Shown here: one piece after another, positions 173-15,000 of the stretch
How the letters are laid out: every line of letters begins with the position of its first letter
Numbering within the stretch: the stretch's first letter is position 1
Origin: Limosilactobacillus reuteri
Lineage (GTDB): Bacteria; Bacillota; Bacilli; Lactobacillales; Lactobacillaceae
Reading direction: 5' to 3'
DNA: 15,000 nt
Assembly (NCBI RefSeq): GCF_034259105.1
Contig: NZ_CP139478.1
Span: 700,001-715,000 of the forward strand
Made by a program: the position numbers and the translations under genes
The notes under the pieces: generated by a model
The model's database searches: none
The model's input: the letters and a program-made list of their open reading frames with translations, nothing else
What the model was told of the DNA's origin: nothing

Positions 173-180
173 AGGCTCTA

Positions 181-186
181 CGTCAA
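181..186 (-). promoter_or_regulatory. Outward -35 half-promoter at ISL3 right end, copy 1
   Basis: TTGACG (minus strand) lies 7 bases inside the right end of the element and points outward. No matching -10 lies at the proper distance in the present flank (the tRNA terminator). It becomes meaningful only if the two ends of the element are joined, when it would pair with TACAAT at the left end. The motif is seen; the role is inferred. Confidence 0.45.
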
Positions 187-236
187 GTAGTGTTGATACG
201 CAAATATGAATTTTCGCCAATTAAATTGGTCTAGTT

Positions 237-264
237 AGAATCGTCATTCGTGGCGGTTCTTTTT
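237..264 (+). terminator. Inward-facing terminator hairpin at ISL3 right end, copy 1
   Basis: On the plus strand a 10-bp stem (237-246 with 251-260) is closed by the stable tetraloop TTCG and followed by a run of five T residues. Two of its pairs are G-U, so the same DNA read on the transposase strand has two C-A mismatches and no T-tract. The hairpin should stop transcription entering the element from the tRNA side, which would be antisense to the transposase, while affecting the transposase mRNA little. Confidence 0.7.
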
Positions 265-1549
265 AGTTAGTTTGAATTTGGTGGCCAATAATTAAATAAA
301 TCCGCGTTTTAAATGCCGTAAAGTAACGATAACCACAGGCAACTCGTTTGATAGTTTTAATTCGATTATTAATCCCTTCGGTTCGACCATTTGAGAACTT
401 CGTCTCAAAGCCACGCTTAATTCCCTTTTTATAGCGTGCTAAAACTTGACAACGGCGGATTGTATAATGGCTGACACTGTCTGGCCGGAGTTTAAGTAAT
501 TGAAAGAAAGTTGTAAAATCACGTTGATTGTAAGCACGCTTCAAGGATTGAATAAAATTATAGGTGGCTCTTAACTCTTGGTCATACGCTAACATTAAGT
601 CTAAGATCATAATGGAATTAACAACGCGATTAAAATAACGTCCTTCGTAATAAACTTTTGTACTTAAATTTTCCCGATCTTGAAGAAATAGCCGCCGATA
701 ACGTTTAAGGCGCCGAGCTTGTTTCTGCTCCGCAGAATCACCTTTTCGCAAACGATTGAAGACATGAATTTGCACATGATTCATCGTATCATTAAGGTGT
801 TTGGCAATATGAAAGCGATCATAGATGATTTGAGCACAAGGAAAAACGGTTTTAACTAGTTGATCATAAGCAGCGTTCATATCCATTACCAGATATTTTA
901 CCCGGCAACGGGCAGCACGTGTAAACTGTTGATAATGCTTAAATAAACTACGTAATCGCCGATCTTCAAGGAGTTCAAATAAGCAACTCCGATCACCATC
1001 AACGGCGATGAAACTCATCTTACCTTTAGCGCTCCGCATTGATTTAAATTCATCAATACATAGTGTTTCCGGTAGATAGTTTAAATTCGGCTTGTATTGA
1101 TCAGCGAGGTCCAAAAGGACCCGCTGGACCGAAGCTTCACTGATAAACAAATCATGGGCAATATCTTTAATTGTTTGAATTCGCGTTAACCGAAGAATAA
1201 TTTTACGCCTTAAATCACGACTAATTGTTCGTTGCTTTTCAAAAAGATAACTAGTCGCATTAAATGTTGTATGGCAGTCAGGACATTGAAAACGTTGAGT
1301 ATTAACAAGCAATATTAATGGTTGAGCCCTAAATTGTCCATATTTGTATTTAGCTTGATAAAAACCATATTTTAAGATTTGTCCACGATTAATAACGCCA
1401 CAATTGGGACAAGCACGCGGGATATAAGAAAGGGTACAGGATATTTGTGCCACCCGAACGTTTTTAATTGATTTATATTTAAGCCAATGATGAGGAAAAT
1501 TTAAATGAGGGTCTGTTAAATCGAGGAGAGTCCTTGTATCATTATCCAT
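263..1549 (-). CDS. ISL3-family transposase, copy 1
   Basis: This DDE transposase moves the ISL3 element. The N-terminal part has two zinc-binding CxxC pairs (CPNC and CPDC) and then a helix-turn-helix-like segment (the region around IKDIAHDLFISEASVQRVLL). Catalytic acidic residues are seen in LCIDEFKS, LVMDMNAAY and the C-terminal RTEGINNRIK block. I chose the start at 1549 because AAGG lies 8 bases upstream and the family's proteins usually begin near this point; an in-frame ATG at 1603 would add 18 residues but has no usable ribosome site. This gives 428 residues. It differs from copy 2 at seven positions (for example D28N and an R-to-W change, in extended numbering). The frame is intact, but the IS30 element sits 68 bases upstream of the start in the same orientation, so expression would depend on read-through from IS30 or a weak local promoter. 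Confidence 0.93.
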   Translation of the reverse strand: MDNDTRTLLDLTDPHLNFPHHWLKYKSIKNVRVAQISCTLSYIPRACPNCGVINRGQILKYGFYQAKYKYGQFRAQPLILLVNTQRFQCPDCHTTFNATSYLFEKQRTISRDLRRKIILRLTRIQTIKDIAHDLFISEASVQRVLLDLADQYKPNLNYLPETLCIDEFKSMRSAKGKMSFIAVDGDRSCLFELLEDRRLRSLFKHYQQFTRAARCRVKYLVMDMNAAYDQLVKTVFPCAQIIYDRFHIAKHLNDTMNHVQIHVFNRLRKGDSAEQKQARRLKRYRRLFLQDRENLSTKVYYEGRYFNRVVNSIMILDLMLAYDQELRATYNFIQSLKRAYNQRDFTTFFQLLKLRPDSVSHYTIRRCQVLARYKKGIKRGFETKFSNGRTEGINNRIKTIKRVACGYRYFTAFKTRIYLIIGHQIQTN

Positions 1550-1624
1550 GGAGGTTACCTTCTTTACTATGTGATTTGGCGATTTCATTGTATCAGAGGG
1601 CATGCCTCTTTTTTAGTCCCGAAA

Positions 1625-1630
1625 TGTCAA
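1625..1630 (-). promoter_or_regulatory. Outward -35 half-promoter in IS30 right end
   Basis: A perfect TTGACA (minus strand) lies 7 bases inside the transposase-3' end and points outward. No good -10 sits 16-18 bases beyond it in the ISL3 flank. Joined to the other end of the element it would form a promoter with TAAAAT at 2676-2681. IS30 itself is known to make such a junction promoter when its ends are brought together; for this element it is an inference. Confidence 0.5.
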
Positions 1631-1636
1631 TTTAAG

Positions 1637-2602
1637 TTAGAAAGAAAATAGTTGCTCATCAGTGACGTAAGACATGAATACTTCATATGGAGTTCGATAG
1701 CCTAGTGATTTACGGGGCAGGTTATTTCGCTTACTCATCAGTTGGGTTACCAATTCATCAGGAAGATTGCGGAAATCTAGCTGTTTCGTTAAGCCATCCC
1801 GGCGTAAAAGACCGTTGTTGTTTTCGTTCAGCCCTCGTTGATTGGGAGCACCAACCTCGGCAAAGTAAGTGTGAAGGTCAAATTGATTGGCAATCTCGCG
1901 CCAGCCGGCGAATTCTTTTCCGTTGTCAAAGGTAATCGATTTGAAGAAGTGCCGCGGGAATTTCCGAAGCCACTGACTTAAGTGTTGGTTAATCGCATTA
2001 GCCGTCTTTTCGTGCACATTGAGTACAATTTCGACCTTCGATTGGCGTTCGGTCAGGGTCATTACCGCCCCTTGGTGCTTTTTGCCTTGGACGGTATCAG
2101 CTTCAAGGTGCCCAAATTCAGTGGCATAGTGCGGAAAGTCCTTGGCACGCTCGTGAATACTTCGCCCCAATTGGCCAGCCTTCCCACGGCGCTCGACATA
2201 GCCATTCGGGTGCCGCTTACCTCGCATCGGCAAGGAACGGACATCGAAGCCGAACTGGCCACGTTCAAACATCCGGTAAAGAGTTCGCCGGTTACAACTA
2301 ATTGGGCGCTCAGCGCGCCCAATAATGGTATCAGGCGTCCACCTCTGGGCAATTTTGTCGTTGATATAAGTGAGTTCAGCCAGTGACAACTGAGTACGTT
2401 TTCGGCCACAACGTTGCTTATTGCGCATATAGTGATCTTGATAATCAGCAATTGAGGCACCGGTTTCCAGGTAACGATAAACGCGATAAACGGTTTCGGC
2501 GCAACGTTTGATCATTTGGGCCACTCGGTACGCTTTAAGCTTTTGCACGAAAGAATGGGCGATGATTGTCAGCTCGTTTGTGGTAAGATGGGTGTAAGTC
2601 AT
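1637..2602 (-). CDS. IS30-family transposase
   Basis: This 321-residue DDE transposase acts on the IS30-like element. The N-terminal quarter is a helix-turn-helix DNA-binding region (KLKAYRVAQMIKRCAETVYRVYRY). The catalytic core shows the three family blocks: HLEADTVQG (first Asp), ITFDNGKEF (second Asp) and the NQRGLNENNNGLLRRDG block that carries the Glu. The family length is about 310-350 residues, so it appears complete. The ATG is preceded by AAAGGAA at a normal distance, but the start codon itself is part of a 10-bp inverted repeat described separately. No terminator hairpin is seen between its stop and the ISL3 transposase downstream. Confidence 0.96.
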   Translation of the reverse strand: MTYTHLTTNELTIIAHSFVQKLKAYRVAQMIKRCAETVYRVYRYLETGASIADYQDHYMRNKQRCGRKRTQLSLAELTYINDKIAQRWTPDTIIGRAERPISCNRRTLYRMFERGQFGFDVRSLPMRGKRHPNGYVERRGKAGQLGRSIHERAKDFPHYATEFGHLEADTVQGKKHQGAVMTLTERQSKVEIVLNVHEKTANAINQHLSQWLRKFPRHFFKSITFDNGKEFAGWREIANQFDLHTYFAEVGAPNQRGLNENNNGLLRRDGLTKQLDFRNLPDELVTQLMSKRNNLPRKSLGYRTPYEVFMSYVTDEQLFSF

Positions 2603-2653
2603 TTGTGGTTTCCTTTCTTTTGTTTAGGGGTATTCAAAAGTCTACCACAAATG
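2600..2653 (-). promoter_or_regulatory. Hairpin covering the IS30 transposase start codon
   Basis: On the transposase mRNA, CATTTGTGGT near the 5' end (2644-2653) is perfectly complementary to ACCACAAATG, which contains the ATG start (2600-2609). The 34-base loop holds the ribosome-binding site AAAGGAA directly against the stem. Folding would hide the start codon and limit transposase synthesis, as other insertion sequences do with transcripts that enter from outside. The repeat is seen; the regulatory role is inferred. Confidence 0.6.
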
Positions 2654-2675
2654 GCTTTTCTATTTTTCTAACTTA

Positions 2676-2681
2676 ATTTTA
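2676..2681 (-). promoter_or_regulatory. -10 half-promoter in IS30 left end
   Basis: TAAAAT (minus strand) starts 9 bases after the outer tip of the transposase-5' end and has no good -35 in the present flank. In a joined-end form with a 2-bp joint, the spacing from TTGACA of the other end would be 7+2+9 = 18 bases, giving a transposase promoter. Confidence 0.5.
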
Positions 2682-2701
2682 CAAACGGCGAGTTTAAAAA
2701 C

Positions 2702-2752
2702 AAAAAATCTGGTATTGGTATAGAAAGTGATATTTCTATATCAACACCAGAT
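2702..2752 (-). terminator. Inward-facing terminator hairpin at ISL3 left end, copy 1
   Basis: Read on the minus strand, a 20-bp stem (arms at 2707-2726 and 2733-2752, one mismatch and one G-U pair) with a 6-base loop is followed by a run of T residues. It faces into the element and should stop transcription coming from outside towards the transposase. It starts immediately after the TACAAT -10 half-promoter. In this copy it is now separated from the ISL3 transposase by the IS30 element. Confidence 0.7.
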
Positions 2753-2758
2753 ATTGTA
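2753..2758 (-). promoter_or_regulatory. -10 half-promoter at ISL3 left end, copy 1
   Basis: TACAAT (minus strand) begins 5 bases inside the left end of the element. No matching -35 is visible in the flank at 2764-2790. Joined to the right end (TTGACG, 7 bases from the tip) with a 5-bp joint it would give 17-bp spacing. The motif is seen; the function is inferred. Confidence 0.45.
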
Positions 2759-2806
2759 GAGCCTTTTTTTATTGGCCAAAGTAAACAGTTAATAAAAATA
2801 CAGATC

Positions 2807-5962: not shown

Positions 5963-6903
5963 ATGCAACATACATGTACAATGTTTTTAGCAGGAAAGAA
6001 TGCAACGATTGACGGGTCAACTATAGTTTGTCGTGAGGAAGATTATGGTAATGCGTTTGATCCTCAAAAATTTGTATTAGTAAAACCAGAAAGACAGCCA
6101 CGTAAATATCAAAGCAAAACAACTGACTTTAAAATTGATTTACCAGTTCCTAAGCTAAAATATACTTCTACGCCTGATGCTGACGATAAAGATGGAGTTT
6201 TTGGTGCGGGCGGTATCAATGGTCTGAATGTTGCTATGAGTGCGACTAAAACTATTACTACTAATGCCCGGATATTAGCAATAGATCCTTATAACACTTT
6301 ATCTGGAATTGGCGAAGAAGATTTTGTAACATTAGTTCTTCCCTATATTAGGAGTGCGCAAGATGGTGTTAAGAAGCTAGGAAGCTTATTAGAAAAGTAT
6401 GGTACTTATGAGGCTAATGCGATAGCTTTTAGTGATAATAATGAAGTATGGTATATGGAAACAATTGGCGGTCATCATTGGGCAGCTGTTAAAATCCCTG
6501 ATAACGCCTATGTGATTGCTCCTAATCGATTTAACATTACTAATTTTGATTTTGACAGTCCCAACACAATGAGTTCACCAAATTTGAAACAGTGGATTGA
6601 TCAAAATAAGTTGAATCCTAGCGAGAACGAATACAATTTACGACATATTTGTGGAAGTGCAACTGCTACTGATACTGTTTATAACAACCCACGAGCATGG
6701 TATGTTCAGCAGCAATTAGGGACGATAAATGCTAATCCGCAAAGTAATAACCTTCCATTCATCTGTTATGCAAAAGAAAAGCTTACTGTAACTACAATCA
6801 AGAAGTTAATGAGCTCTCATTATCAAGGAACAGCTTTTGATCCGTATCATTTAGAAAGAGATAAAGCACCATTTAGGTCAATTGCATTAAACCGAAATTT
6901 AGA
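5963..6903 (+). pseudogene. C69-family dipeptidase, 5' fragment (disrupted by IS1182)
   Basis: This is the first two thirds of a family C69 dipeptidase (PepD type), a cytoplasmic N-terminal-nucleophile peptidase that cleaves dipeptides. It keeps the expected nucleophile Cys5 in MQHTCTMFLAGKNATIDGSTI and the blocks YMETIGGHHWAAVKIPD and APNRFNI. The sequence is dipeptidase up to ALNRNLE (residue 314) and then enters the IS1182 end, adding only RLGINY before a stop at 6925. The 3' remainder is at 10259-10669. AAAGGAG inside the coiA end serves as ribosome site. Without the C-terminal domain the product is probably inactive or unstable. Confidence 0.92.
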
Positions 6904-6944
6904 GAGGCTGGGAATTAACTATTAAATTCCTTCCTCTGAATATT

Positions 6945-6994
6945 AAAATCCGAACCATAATTTCTGGAAAATCAAAAATTATGGTTCGGATTTT
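6945..6994. terminator. IS1182 left-end hairpin
   Basis: A perfect 19-bp stem (6945-6963 with 6976-6994) with a 12-base loop is flanked by A-rich and T-rich tracts, so it may terminate in both directions. It lies downstream of the transposase frame. Before the ISL3 insertion that frame appears to have run through this hairpin to the end of the element. Confidence 0.7.
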
Positions 6995-7018
6995 TCCTTT
7001 TTCAATTAATTTTGGCTC

Positions 7019-7024
7019 TACAAT
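7019..7024 (+). promoter_or_regulatory. -10 half-promoter at ISL3 left end, copy 2
   Basis: TACAAT starts 5 bases inside the element. The flank at 6996-7001, where a -35 would sit, reads CCTTTT and is not a match. A transcript from it would start about 7031, inside the 5' arm of the hairpin that begins at 7025. Confidence 0.45.
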
Positions 7025-7075
7025 ATCTGGTGTTGATATAGAAATATCACTTTCTATACCAATACTAGATTTTTT
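7025..7075 (+). terminator. Inward-facing terminator hairpin at ISL3 left end, copy 2
   Basis: A 20-bp stem (7025-7044 with 7051-7070; two G-U pairs and one mismatch) with a 6-base loop is followed by TTTTT at 7071-7075. It should stop transcripts that enter the element from the dipeptidase/coiA side before they reach the transposase. On the opposite strand the G-U pairs become C-A mismatches, so it favours the inward direction. Confidence 0.72.
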
Positions 7076-7151
7076 GTTTTTAAACTAAAAAAGAGGCATG
7101 CCCTCTGATACAATGAAATCGCCAAATCACATAGTAAAGAAGGTAACCTCC

Positions 7152-8438
7152 ATGGATAATGATACAAGGACTCTCCTCAATTTAACAGACCCTCATTTAA
7201 ATTTTCCTCATCATTGGCTTAAATATAAATCAATTAAAAACGTTCGGGTGGCACAAATATCCTGTACCCTTTCTTATATCCCGCGTGCTTGTCCAAATTG
7301 TGGCGTTATTAATCGTGGACAAATCTTAAAATATGGTTTTTATCAAGCTAAATACAAATATGGACAATTTAGGGCTCAACCATTAATGTTGCTTGTTAAT
7401 ACTCAACGTTTTCAATGTCCTGACTGCCATACAACATTTAATGCGACTAGTTATCTTTTTGAAAAGCAACGAACAATTAGTCGTGATTTAAGGCGTGAAA
7501 TTATTCTTCGGTTAACGCGAATTCAAACAATTAAAGATATTGCCCATGATTTGTTTATCAGTGAAGCTTCGGTCCAGCGGGTCCTTTTGGACCTCGCTGA
7601 TCAATACAAGCCGAATTTAAACTATCTACCGGAAACACTATGTATTGATGAATTTAAATCAATGCGGAGCGCTAAAGGTAAGATGAGTTTCATCGCTGTT
7701 GATGGTGATCGGAGTTGCTTATTTGAACTCCTTGAAGATCGGCGATTACGTAGTTTATTTAAGCATTATCAACAGTTTACACGTGCTGCCCGTTGCCGGG
7801 TAAAATATCTGGTAATGGATATGAACGCTGCTTATGATCAACTAGTTAAAACCGTTTTTCCTTGTGCTCAAATCATCTATGATCGCTTTCATATTGCCAA
7901 ACACCTTAATGATACGATGAATCATGTGCGAATTCATGTCTTCAATCGTTTGCGAAAAGGTGATTCTGCGGAGCAGAAACAAGCTCGGCGCCTTAAACGT
8001 TATTGGCGGCTATTTCTTCAAGATCGGGAAAATTTAAGTACAAAAGTTTATTACGAAGGACGTTATTTTAATCGCGTTGTTAATTCCATTATGATCTTAG
8101 ACTTAATGTTAGCGTATGACCAAGAGTTAAGAGCCACCTATAATTTTATTCAATCCTTGAAGCGTGCTTACAATCAACGTGATTTTACAACTTTCTTTCA
8201 ATTACTTAAACTCCGGCCAGACAGTGTCAGCCATTATACAATCCACCGTTGTCAAGTTTTAGCGCGCTATAAAGAGGGAATTAAGCGTGGCTTTGAGACG
8301 AAGTTCTCAAATGGTCGAACCGAAGGGATTAATAATCGAATTAAAACTATCAAACGAGTTGCCTGTGGTTATCGTTACTTTACGGCATTTAAAACGCGGA
8401 TTTATTTAATTATTGGCCACCAAATTCAAACTAACTAA
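7152..8438 (+). CDS. ISL3-family transposase, copy 2
   Basis: This 428-residue DDE transposase is nearly identical to copy 1. It carries the CPNC and CPDC zinc-binding pairs, a helix-turn-helix-like region, and acidic residues in CIDEFKS, VMDMNAAY and RTEGINN. I chose ATG 7152 because AAGG lies 8 bases upstream; the in-frame ATG at 7098 has AAGAGG only one base before it. A short inverted repeat AGAGG-CATGC-CCTCT and a lone TACAAT (7109-7114, no -35) precede the gene, so in its integrated state it seems to have only a weak promoter of its own. With intact frame and ends, this copy could be active. Confidence 0.95.
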   Translation: MDNDTRTLLNLTDPHLNFPHHWLKYKSIKNVRVAQISCTLSYIPRACPNCGVINRGQILKYGFYQAKYKYGQFRAQPLMLLVNTQRFQCPDCHTTFNATSYLFEKQRTISRDLRREIILRLTRIQTIKDIAHDLFISEASVQRVLLDLADQYKPNLNYLPETLCIDEFKSMRSAKGKMSFIAVDGDRSCLFELLEDRRLRSLFKHYQQFTRAARCRVKYLVMDMNAAYDQLVKTVFPCAQIIYDRFHIAKHLNDTMNHVRIHVFNRLRKGDSAEQKQARRLKRYWRLFLQDRENLSTKVYYEGRYFNRVVNSIMILDLMLAYDQELRATYNFIQSLKRAYNQRDFTTFFQLLKLRPDSVSHYTIHRCQVLARYKEGIKRGFETKFSNGRTEGINNRIKTIKRVACGYRYFTAFKTRIYLIIGHQIQTN

Positions 8439-8464
8439 AAAGAACCGCCACGAATGACGATTCT
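8437..8464 (-). terminator. Inward-facing terminator hairpin at ISL3 right end, copy 2
   Basis: This is the same 10-bp, TTCG-loop hairpin as in copy 1, read on the minus strand with its T-tract at 8437-8441, directly after the transposase stop. It should stop antisense transcription entering from the IS1182 side. Confidence 0.7.
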
Positions 8465-8510
8465 AACTAGACCAATTTAATTGGCGAAAATTCATATTTG
8501 CGTATCAACA

Positions 8511-10112
8511 CTACTTGACGTAGAGCCTTAATTTTGTCCCTGCTTGAGCTACTAACTTTCCCAATTTTGTTAAATTCATAGCCATTAGTGTAAATCCGGT
8601 GTCATTTTCCACAGCGCGTTGCCCACGTAAATGTGTTCGGCGTACGCCAAAATCCCTCTTCATGTGACCGAAAACGGGTTCAACGTCGTACTTACGTCGA
8701 CGATAAATTGCCTTACCTTCGTCACTTGAGAGGGTTGCTTTAACTTTAGCTTTATAGTAATTCCAAGTTGGATTAACTTGCATATAGCGTTGACGTCCAC
8801 TTGGTGTTTTCGCTAATTGATCTAATTGTACTGATAATTGATGTTTATCTGCCCGATAAAGTTTAAAATCACGTTTAAATCCATATTTATCAATTCTTCG
8901 ACTGTAACGATAAAAACTAAAACGAACTCCTAGATGGTCAATATAATAATCATCTTCGGCATTATATTGCCAGTTTTGTGATTTAGTTGGATCAGTTTTG
9001 TATTCTCGTTTCTGTTCCTTTTGGTAAGTCGTATATGGAATAACAGGCTGTTTTTCAAACTGATCAATAATTGTCGTGTAATTATATTCACTACCATACC
9101 CTGCATCAGCCACGATATGATCAAAGAAATCTAAAGAATGAAATTGAGCAAGAAATGGTACTAATGTTCTAGTATCTGTCGGATTAGAATATAAGGCATA
9201 ATCAAGAACAAATTGATTGTGGGTAGCGATTTGTAAGTTGTATCCAGGTTTCAATTCTCGGTTTTTCATTGGATCTTCTTTCATACACATGAATGTGGCA
9301 TCATGATCTGTTTTTGAAAAGCTATTGCGGCCCTTAAAAATATCTTCTGCTTCTTCATACTTATTAGCACGAGGTATAAAGTCTTCTTTTAATTGTCGAT
9401 GAATCTTTTTTAAGAAACGGCGTCGTCGTTTCTTAACTGAACCACCCTTGATTACTTTAGGTTCTTGAGCTATTTCTTCATTCAATTCACTGATTTTATC
9501 ATCAATATTTTCAGCCATAAGAGCCATTCCATTAGCGGTTTCCACTAGTTCTGGACTCATCGCTTTAACTACCCGTTTTTCGACTAAATCTTCGTAAAGT
9601 TTGATTGTTTTTTCTTTTAATTTTGCATGATATTTTTCAACAGCTCGACGCCAAGTAAATGAATACTTATTGGCATCTGCCTCAAGCTTTGTCCCATCAA
9701 TAAAGAAAGCATCACCTTGAATTAGTCCGTGATCCTTTAATGCCATCGTAAAGTACACAAAAGAACGTTTGATTAAATTATTAGCTTGTTGACTTTGGCG
9801 AAAATTATTAATTGTATGGTAACTATAGGTATGATCACGTGCCAACCAACGCATTGGTAAATTCCCTTCAAGCATCAACTCAATTTTCCGACCAGAATAA
9901 GTTTGACGTGAATAGGCAAATAATAAAATTTTAAGCATAATCGCTGGATGAGAAAGTGGGCGACCGGTAGTCGCTACTTTGTCATCCAATAAAATTTCTT
10001 GTGGAATCGAATCTACAAAAGCATCAATCATACGTACAATATGTCTTGATGGAACATTATAATCATAATTTAGTACGAATTCTGTTTGCCCTGTGATATA
10101 ATTTTGATACAT
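8511..10112 (-). CDS. IS1182-family transposase, C-terminus replaced by ISL3
   Basis: This DDE transposase of IS1182 type is 533 residues long. It begins with the family N-terminal region (RPLSHPAIMLKILLFAYSRQ and the RDHTYSYHTINNFR block). The catalytic residues lie in FFIDGTKLEADANKYSF (Asp139), HIVADAGYGSE (second Asp, about 340) and DVEPVFGHMKRDFGVRRTH (Glu, about 480). AGAGGAG precedes the ATG at normal spacing. The last five codons, RLYVK, and the stop lie inside ISL3. Removing ISL3 and one target copy restores an open frame for 35 more codons, through the terminal hairpin and inverted repeat, ending ...VNSQPL. The catalytic core is intact, so activity may be reduced rather than lost. 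Confidence 0.92.
   Translation of the reverse strand: MYQNYITGQTEFVLNYDYNVPSRHIVRMIDAFVDSIPQEILLDDKVATTGRPLSHPAIMLKILLFAYSRQTYSGRKIELMLEGNLPMRWLARDHTYSYHTINNFRQSQQANNLIKRSFVYFTMALKDHGLIQGDAFFIDGTKLEADANKYSFTWRRAVEKYHAKLKEKTIKLYEDLVEKRVVKAMSPELVETANGMALMAENIDDKISELNEEIAQEPKVIKGGSVKKRRRRFLKKIHRQLKEDFIPRANKYEEAEDIFKGRNSFSKTDHDATFMCMKEDPMKNRELKPGYNLQIATHNQFVLDYALYSNPTDTRTLVPFLAQFHSLDFFDHIVADAGYGSEYNYTTIIDQFEKQPVIPYTTYQKEQKREYKTDPTKSQNWQYNAEDDYYIDHLGVRFSFYRYSRRIDKYGFKRDFKLYRADKHQLSVQLDQLAKTPSGRQRYMQVNPTWNYYKAKVKATLSSDEGKAIYRRRKYDVEPVFGHMKRDFGVRRTHLRGQRAVENDTGFTLMAMNLTKLGKLVAQAGTKLRLYVK
8515..8520 (+). promoter_or_regulatory. Outward -35 half-promoter at ISL3 right end, copy 2
   Basis: TTGACG lies 7 bases inside the right end and points out of the element. 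The sequence 17 bases on reads CCCTGC, so no promoter is formed with the present flank. Confidence 0.45.

Positions 10113-14400: not shown

Positions 14401-15000
<600 letters not shown>

Follow-up and report, generated by a model that had tools for sequence, protein, structure and literature searches.

How might an insertion sequence keep its transposase gene from being transcribed out of neighbouring genes, while allowing for its transcription once the two ends of the element are joined? This question is raised by an element in a 15,000-bp stretch of the Limosilactobacillus reuteri genome (RefSeq assembly GCF_034259105.1, contig NZ_CP139478.1, positions 700,001 to 715,000; hereafter the window, to whose numbering all coordinates refer). 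The element, copy 2 of an ISL3-family insertion sequence, is 1514 bp long and occupies 7014..8527 on the plus strand. A preliminary description of the window had proposed that a promoter is divided between the two ends of this element, and that a hairpin at its left end would act as a terminator on transcripts arriving from outside, but not on those started at joined ends. Here we compare copy 2 with its relatives and weigh this proposal against other explanations.

The assignment of copy 2 to ISL3 rests on its transposase, its ends and its target site. The transposase gene (7152..8438, plus strand; open frame from 7098, with the start at 7152 inferred) encodes a protein of the DDE type that matches DDE_Tnp_ISL3 (PF01610, E 2.4e-47). 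The terminal inverted repeats, matched at 18 of 24 bp, begin with GG, as is the rule in the ISL3 family. The element is flanked by the 8-bp target duplication TTAATTTT, identical on both sides (left 7006..7013, right 8528..8535), and such duplications are AT-rich, with a mean A+T content of 0.84 over 93 sites.

ISL3 relatives were gathered at every rank from genus to phylum, as well as from plasmids and a genome collection (in the order, PF01610 was matched in 97 of 246 genomes at the cut used). The ends of each element were set by the inverted repeat together with a target duplication of at least 7/8 bp, blind to promoter and hairpin. A first sample of 146 frames gave 75 elements and 45 types (<85% end identity), 43 of which lie near the window transposase (E < 1e-16) and are referred to below as the close types. 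A wider sample of 212 ISL3 frames, in which loci partly overlap and frames repeat, gave 96 elements and 60 types; the other 116 frames, having no ends with a duplication of at least 7/8 bp, were excluded from the counts.

A probable split promoter and an inbound hairpin

The two ends of copy 2 carry complementary halves of a promoter-like sequence. As the preliminary description had read them, and as the letters confirm one by one, an outward -35 hexamer, TTGACG, is set 7 nt in from the right tip (8515..8520, plus strand), and a -10 hexamer, TACAAT, 5 nt in from the left tip (7019..7024, plus strand). When the close types were searched for their best TTGACA-like hexamer over the final 40 nt, its distance to the right tip was precisely 7 nt in 43/43; for the best TATAAT-like hexamer over the first 40 nt, the distance to the left tip was precisely 5 nt in 41/43. 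Both hexamers match at 5/6 positions or better in 35 of these types, and the exact consensus is present at the right (-35) in 32 and at the left (-10) in 19. As a control, the same positions at the opposite ends reach 5/6 in 0/43 and 0/43, so that two ends which are otherwise inverted repeats differ exactly where a split promoter requires it. In the wider sample, where the promoter label stands for at least 4/6 matches in each hexamer, the split promoter is kept in 50 of the 60 types, and both hexamers reach at least 5/6 in 42.

In the integrated state, the left-end -10 would have no -35 partner, and the element would hence lack a strong transposase promoter. In 84 integrated copies with both half-promoters, the flanking DNA at the -35 distance matches the consensus at a mean of 2.4/6 positions, compared with 2.5 for shuffled flanks, whereas a joined right end at that distance would match at a mean of 5.6/6 (a value that is high through the selection of those copies). 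In one copy, L117, the flank does supply a full TTGACA, spaced at 16 bp. A plain promoter scan of 6900-8600 gave no excess of predictions (5, compared with a shuffle mean of 5.8), which is what a split promoter would require. Judged from these comparisons, a split promoter is highly probable.

The spacing at joined ends equals 12 bp (7 + 5) plus the joint, and reaches 17 bp only with a joint of 5 bp. With such a joint, in a circle or a tandem, TTGACG and TACAAT would form a strong promoter. Joints of this length are on record for an ISL3-like transposon of Enterococcus faecium, the circles of which, detected by inverse PCR, carry the 5-bp joints ATTTT, TATTT and TTATC alongside 8-bp duplications, according to the passages of PMC5559704 consulted.

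Directly after TACAAT begins the hairpin, which occupies 7025..7070 on the plus strand, takes its 5' arm from the inner left inverted repeat and is followed by a T5 tract at 7071..7075, also on the plus strand; the preliminary description was accurate here, the stem having 19 pairs and one A-C mismatch. RNA of 7025-7075 folds with a predicted -19.6 kcal/mol (z -7.2), and 0/200 shuffles fold as well. A stable RNA hairpin adjoining a T-tract is the layout of an intrinsic terminator, and the full hairpin (type L001) scores 21.4 by a version of the d'Aubenton Carafa formula. The hairpin is found in 39 of the 43 close types by a strict hairpin-plus-T rule and in 47 of the 60 types by the rule used for the wider set; in 39 of those 47 the full hairpin has a terminator score above 0.

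Two features indicate that the two arms have been kept as partners in RNA. First, over the 47 hairpin types, native arms pair at -20.5 kcal/mol compared with -7.6 kcal/mol for arms exchanged between types; the own 3' arm is the best partner in 39/47, and all 1254 swaps between dissimilar 5' arms are worse. Second, positions that depart from Watson-Crick pairing are G-U 97 times and A-C 10 times, with G-U above A-C in 40 types, below it in 3 and equal to it in 4. Because a G/T-rich 5' arm might explain a raw excess of G-U, a first count of 92 to 10 was repeated per eligible site, and the bias stayed (20.7% G-U compared with 3.9% A-C in the first 43 types; Fisher 1.8e-11). The excess of G-U on the sense strand therefore points to the RNA read toward the transposase gene as the selected form. 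Consistent with the proposal that the hairpin stops read-through RNA, which is well supported by the scores and by this strand bias, we regard the left hairpin as very probably a terminator. Polymerase arriving from a neighbouring gene would transcribe the whole hairpin and stop before the transposase gene.

The preliminary description had also suggested that an alignment of many ISL3 elements be used to see whether these features go together. In the 60 types, the -35, the -10 and the hairpin occur together in 46, the promoter alone in 4 (L142, L182, L189 and L231), the hairpin alone in 1 (L115) and neither in 9. The nine include L221, the ends of which look spurious, and L190, with hexamer matches of 5/6 and 3/6. 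On a transposase tree of 59 sequences, the label for promoter plus hairpin requires 4 changes compared with 11.9 for shuffled labels, while the promoter-only label is unclustered (3 changes, shuffled mean 3.9). The eight types with neither feature, L221 left aside, fall together with L231 in one nine-row part of the tree, which includes all four elements sampled from Proteobacteria, together with several from further families of the phylum. By this distribution of labels over types and tree, the promoter extends further than the hairpin, which a few branches have lost or never acquired. In L131, the first ~53 nt, comprising left tip and hairpin, are duplicated in tandem (1578 bp, compared with 1525 bp in its relative L151).

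When 22 of the excluded loci were re-inspected, the leading candidate ends matched at least 5/6 in both hexamers at 13 (L090, L093, L120, L124, L138, L146, L150, L155, L173, L197, L204, L211 and L232), L116 had matches of 6 and 4, and no good ends were found at 8 (L118, L122, L159, L161, L174, L176, L184 and L199). At L173, a 23/24 repeat was rejected as a pair of ISL3 ends, since it resembles IS6-type ends around the region; the next candidate pair there has TATAAT and TTGACA.

Overlap of the hairpin with the predicted start site

If joined ends form a promoter, its position relative to the hairpin decides what the resulting RNA contains. From the -10, the junction transcript is predicted to start at 7030..7032 on the plus strand (nearest purines 7030 and 7032), that is, within the 5' arm. 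It would lack the stem base next to the T-tract, and polymerase would enter the transposase gene. RNA beginning at 7031 is predicted to fold at -9.1 kcal/mol (z -3.75), with ~6 unpaired nt then lying between stem and T-tract, and the terminator score of type L001 falls to -69.

This layout is general among the hairpin types. The stem starts 8-17 nt from the tip in 47/47, and the predicted +1 lies at 18-19, so that the stem begins upstream of it in every type. At stem positions 14-17, which vary in the type of pair, standard pairs are found in 32/32, 33/38, 46/46 and 47/47 (the pairing register favours Watson-Crick pairs); these positions lie upstream of the predicted +1, and hence only read-through RNA would hold their bases. 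The terminator score computed from the predicted start is positive in 0/47 types, a loss that is partly definitional, given that no terminator stripped of its base can pass the score. More telling is that the predicted start falls inside the stem base in every type.

A second line of evidence comes from the right ends. In 39 of 45 types, the 200 nt next to the right tip hold a minus-strand terminator that reads into the element; three control stretches of the gene gave scoring terminators in 0, 0 and 0 of 45, as did the plus strand close to that end (0/45). The window's own type has a terminator-like hairpin at 8441..8464 on the minus strand, which lies at the threshold (-0.0) and outside the 39. 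Earlier scans of the two ends had unlike limits (left starts 8-26, right from 13), and the contrast held when an identical scan was applied to the first 200 nt of both ends: left terminators start at 11-17 (36/45 types), whereas right terminators start at 34-76 (39/45 types). No left terminator starting at position 18 or later was found in these first 200 nt, either in the 45 types (0/45) or in the hairpin set (0/47), and a transcript from the joint would thus meet no scoring terminator there. That the right inbound terminator is free to sit inside the element while the left one sits over the start is the best argument for a coupling of hairpin and start site. The claim that junction RNA escapes termination is to this extent supported by position.

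The insertion sites bear on what the left terminator would meet. Among 93 distinct sites, 34 lie on the T-tail of an intrinsic terminator of the host, compared with 6 of 731 control positions at fixed offsets and 17 of 650 composition-matched controls in the same flanks. The 34 terminator-tail insertions are oriented plus in 18 cases, minus in 15 and both in 1. Copy 2 itself sits after the terminator of a C69 peptidase gene (6945-7013). Read-through past the host terminator would be what the left terminator of the element meets.

Taken as a working mechanism, these features describe a two-state transcription switch, in which the left inverted repeat would have three uses: transposase site, carrier of the -10 and 5' arm of the terminator. 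Judging from the sequences compared, we consider this full model likely, and it does not require that the coupling itself be selected. That the coupling to the start site is a selected function is, in our estimate, probable. A broader version, in which an entire ISL3 clade within Bacillota carries a terminator that reads the origin of transcripts, stops outside transcripts and is invisible to those of joined ends, with inbound terminators at both ends and landing in host terminators insulating the integrated element until joining of its ends switches it on, seems to us about equally likely to be right or wrong.

Points against the proposed switch and competing explanations

Several observations weigh against the switch as set out above. 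In 14/47 types the stem starts at position 16-17, so that few pairs would be lost to junction RNA, only 1-3 nt being missing in these types. At positions 12-17, 147 of 180 paired bases are the same as in the right-end repeat; placing the right-end letters of these positions in the left end weakens the hairpin by more than 1 kcal/mol in 19/46 types and strengthens it in 10. The sequence of the stem base may thus largely follow from the transposase site. The full-hairpin score is 0 or below in 8/47 types. The antisense strand folds well too (z < -2 in 39/43, with the sense strand more stable in 37 and less stable in 5), and right ends read inward beat shuffles with z < -2 in 20/43, the shuffles across types being single-letter (mononucleotide) ones. 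The hairpin is missing from four promoter-bearing types, and L115 (G537) has the hairpin without the promoter; in L115, TTCGAC stands where the -10 is expected and TTGTCG at the right end.

Two further points concern the integrated element and the joint. A candidate weak internal promoter, the extended -10 motif TGATACAAT, lies between hairpin and gene (7106..7114, plus strand), found by a scan that ran without a control and thus yields a candidate only. Complete silence of the integrated element is therefore doubtful, and the earlier claim that it is silent was too strong, since basal transposase needs a source. Joined ends with a 5-bp joint were found in 0 of 397 genomes of the family and 0 of 246 of the order (overlapping sets), using patterns that cover most end types and miss those differing from GGNTCTA or TTGACNNAGANCC. 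The 5-bp joint assumed in the preliminary description is thus in print for one ISL3-like element and was not found in the assembled genomes searched. That element is moreover described, in the same passages of PMC5559704, with perfect inverted repeats of 25 bp, and such repeats would leave no room for the promoter asymmetry seen in the ends of copy 2.

Three matches were set aside in these searches. In the 246 genomes of the order, the pattern matched twice, at L169 (unlike ends 9 bp apart) and at L170 (an 8-bp head-to-tail remnant), both judged by eye; a match in a viral contig had a 1-nt gap and, by eye, 1044 bases around it without anything like ISL3 ends.

The strongest competing explanation accepts both the split promoter and the read-through terminator and denies a function to their overlap. 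The transposase repeat would simply be the nearest available 5' arm, and junction RNA would either be attenuated as well or escape because termination close to a start is poor. The identity of so much of the stem base with the right-end repeat, the types that right-end letters would stabilise, the stems that begin only at 16-17 and the five types in which hairpin and promoter are found apart are all as this explanation would have them. It does not lead one to expect that left terminators from position 18 onward are missing while those of right ends start 34-76 nt inside. In addition, at 33 paired stem-base positions the two ends have different letters, and at 30 of these the letter of the right end would break the pair. 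We therefore consider an overlap without function unlikely, while giving it real weight.

The hairpin might instead be a feature of the DNA, an inverted second transposase site or a cruciform, next to which the T-tract is incidental. Its 5' arm is indeed the inner inverted repeat; the bias to G-U over A-C on the sense strand, the T-tract at the base of the stem and the weaker folding of right ends (mean z -1.7, compared with -6.5 for left ends) make this very improbable. Similarly, the shortened hairpin, with a stem of -9.1 kcal/mol left near the 5' end of junction RNA, might mainly shield transposase mRNA from a 5' exonuclease (RNase J). As a main role this is hardly probable, since it leaves the T-tract and the kept pairs upstream of the start unexplained, and it is compatible with the switch as a second role. 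Least probable is that the hexamers are asymmetric transposase contacts and no promoter, to which their position within the inverted repeats and the 5-bp joint not found in the genomes searched would be suited, because the exact consensus recurs at one fixed distance in 19/43 left and 32/43 right motifs, and because such motifs are missing from the corresponding places in members from Proteobacteria and from elsewhere in the phylum.

Genomic setting, related systems and meaning

The source genome (2.27 Mb in three contigs) holds 8 full-length copies of the copy-2 element, with 8-bp duplications at 8/8, and, as other ISL3 remains, three copies split by an IS30-type insert plus fragments. The copy 2 transposase is 100% identical to that of L077 and 97% to that of L078, both from L. 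reuteri WF-AA1-C. Copy 1 in the window (174..2763, minus strand) has the same -10, hairpin and -35 and is split 3' of its left T-tract by an insert carrying a transposase gene (1637..2602, minus strand; rve match under the Pfam cut-off) that is probably of IS30 type.

The point of insertion, just after the left T-tract, is common to the three split copies (window 1618-2690; L238, L239 and L240). The insert is flanked by a 3-bp ACT duplication, the outer 8-bp duplications match at 7/8, 8/8 and 8/8, and the ISL3 parts differ from copy 2 by 0 letters in L238, 1 in L240 and 11 in L239. Because the inserts differ among the three copies, their shared position suggests that IS30-type elements have targeted ISL3 copies repeatedly. 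Downstream of copy 2, another transposase frame (DDE_Tnp_1, DUF772; 8511-10112, minus strand) enters the right end of copy 2 and stops there, and therefore copy 2 seems to have inserted at the 3' end of that gene. Minus-strand frames at 14448-14980 are presumably chance frames opposite ribosomal RNA genes.

Junction promoters are known from other families. In the minicircle of IS911, an outward -35 in the right repeat and a -10 in the left, with a 3-4 bp spacer, drive the transposase, and IS2, ISLC3, IS21, IS30, IS256 and IS1111 are called analogous (PMC9330008, section 4.2). That section, on fusion promoters, names elements of IS3, IS21, IS30, IS256 and IS1111 and not of ISL3, and mentions no terminator over the start site, which copy 2 has; in the portion of section 4.4 consulted, ISL3 is named only for complete outward promoters, citing IS1411 (PMC9330008). 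In having its -35 at the right end and its -10 at the left, copy 2 is like the IS911-type elements.

The hairpin has its closest parallel elsewhere. In the fold-back inhibition of IS10 and IS50, transcripts that enter from outside fold into a hairpin; because the element's own start lies within the 5' arm, transcripts begun there cannot. Copy 2 shares a hairpin that would depend on the start; in IS10 and IS50, however, it is the ribosome site that the hairpin masks, and the element's own promoter is resident, whereas the hairpin of copy 2 is terminator-like and the promoter would exist only with joined ends. Nor does the hairpin of copy 2 cover the transposase ribosome site, as it ends at 7070, ~80 nt before the inferred start codon at 7152. 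In pyrC-type leaders, too, formation of the hairpin depends on which start is chosen; these differ in belonging to a host gene and in acting on translation, through nucleotide pools.

The ISL3-like fosB transposon of E. faecium (PMC5559704, PMC3812183) resembles copy 2 in its ISL3-type transposase and 8-bp duplications, to which PMC5559704 adds circles with 5-bp joints. It differs in its perfect 25-bp repeats, and the passages seen do not discuss a joint promoter or a terminator. A primer printed for this transposon was absent from 170 and then 177 loci, and a further set of loci gave no match with up to 4 mismatches allowed. The literature searched, which took in a minority of subscription papers, yielded no account of an ISL3 junction promoter or of terminator, hairpin, repeat and promoter combined in ISL3, and on impinging transcription and transposases a single unrelated paper; novelty is thus not proven. 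By analogy, the switch would combine a junction promoter of the IS911 type with the start-dependent hairpin logic of IS10 and IS50; since those elements already apply this logic to translation, the ISL3 case would be a variant and not a new principle.

Overall, the arrangement in copy 2 offers a concrete and testable control logic for an insertion sequence family that is widespread in lactic acid bacteria, and would extend junction promoters to ISL3. It would also represent a compact natural terminator that distinguishes transcripts by where they began, and it would predict when ISL3 elements do or do not respond to neighbouring transcription.

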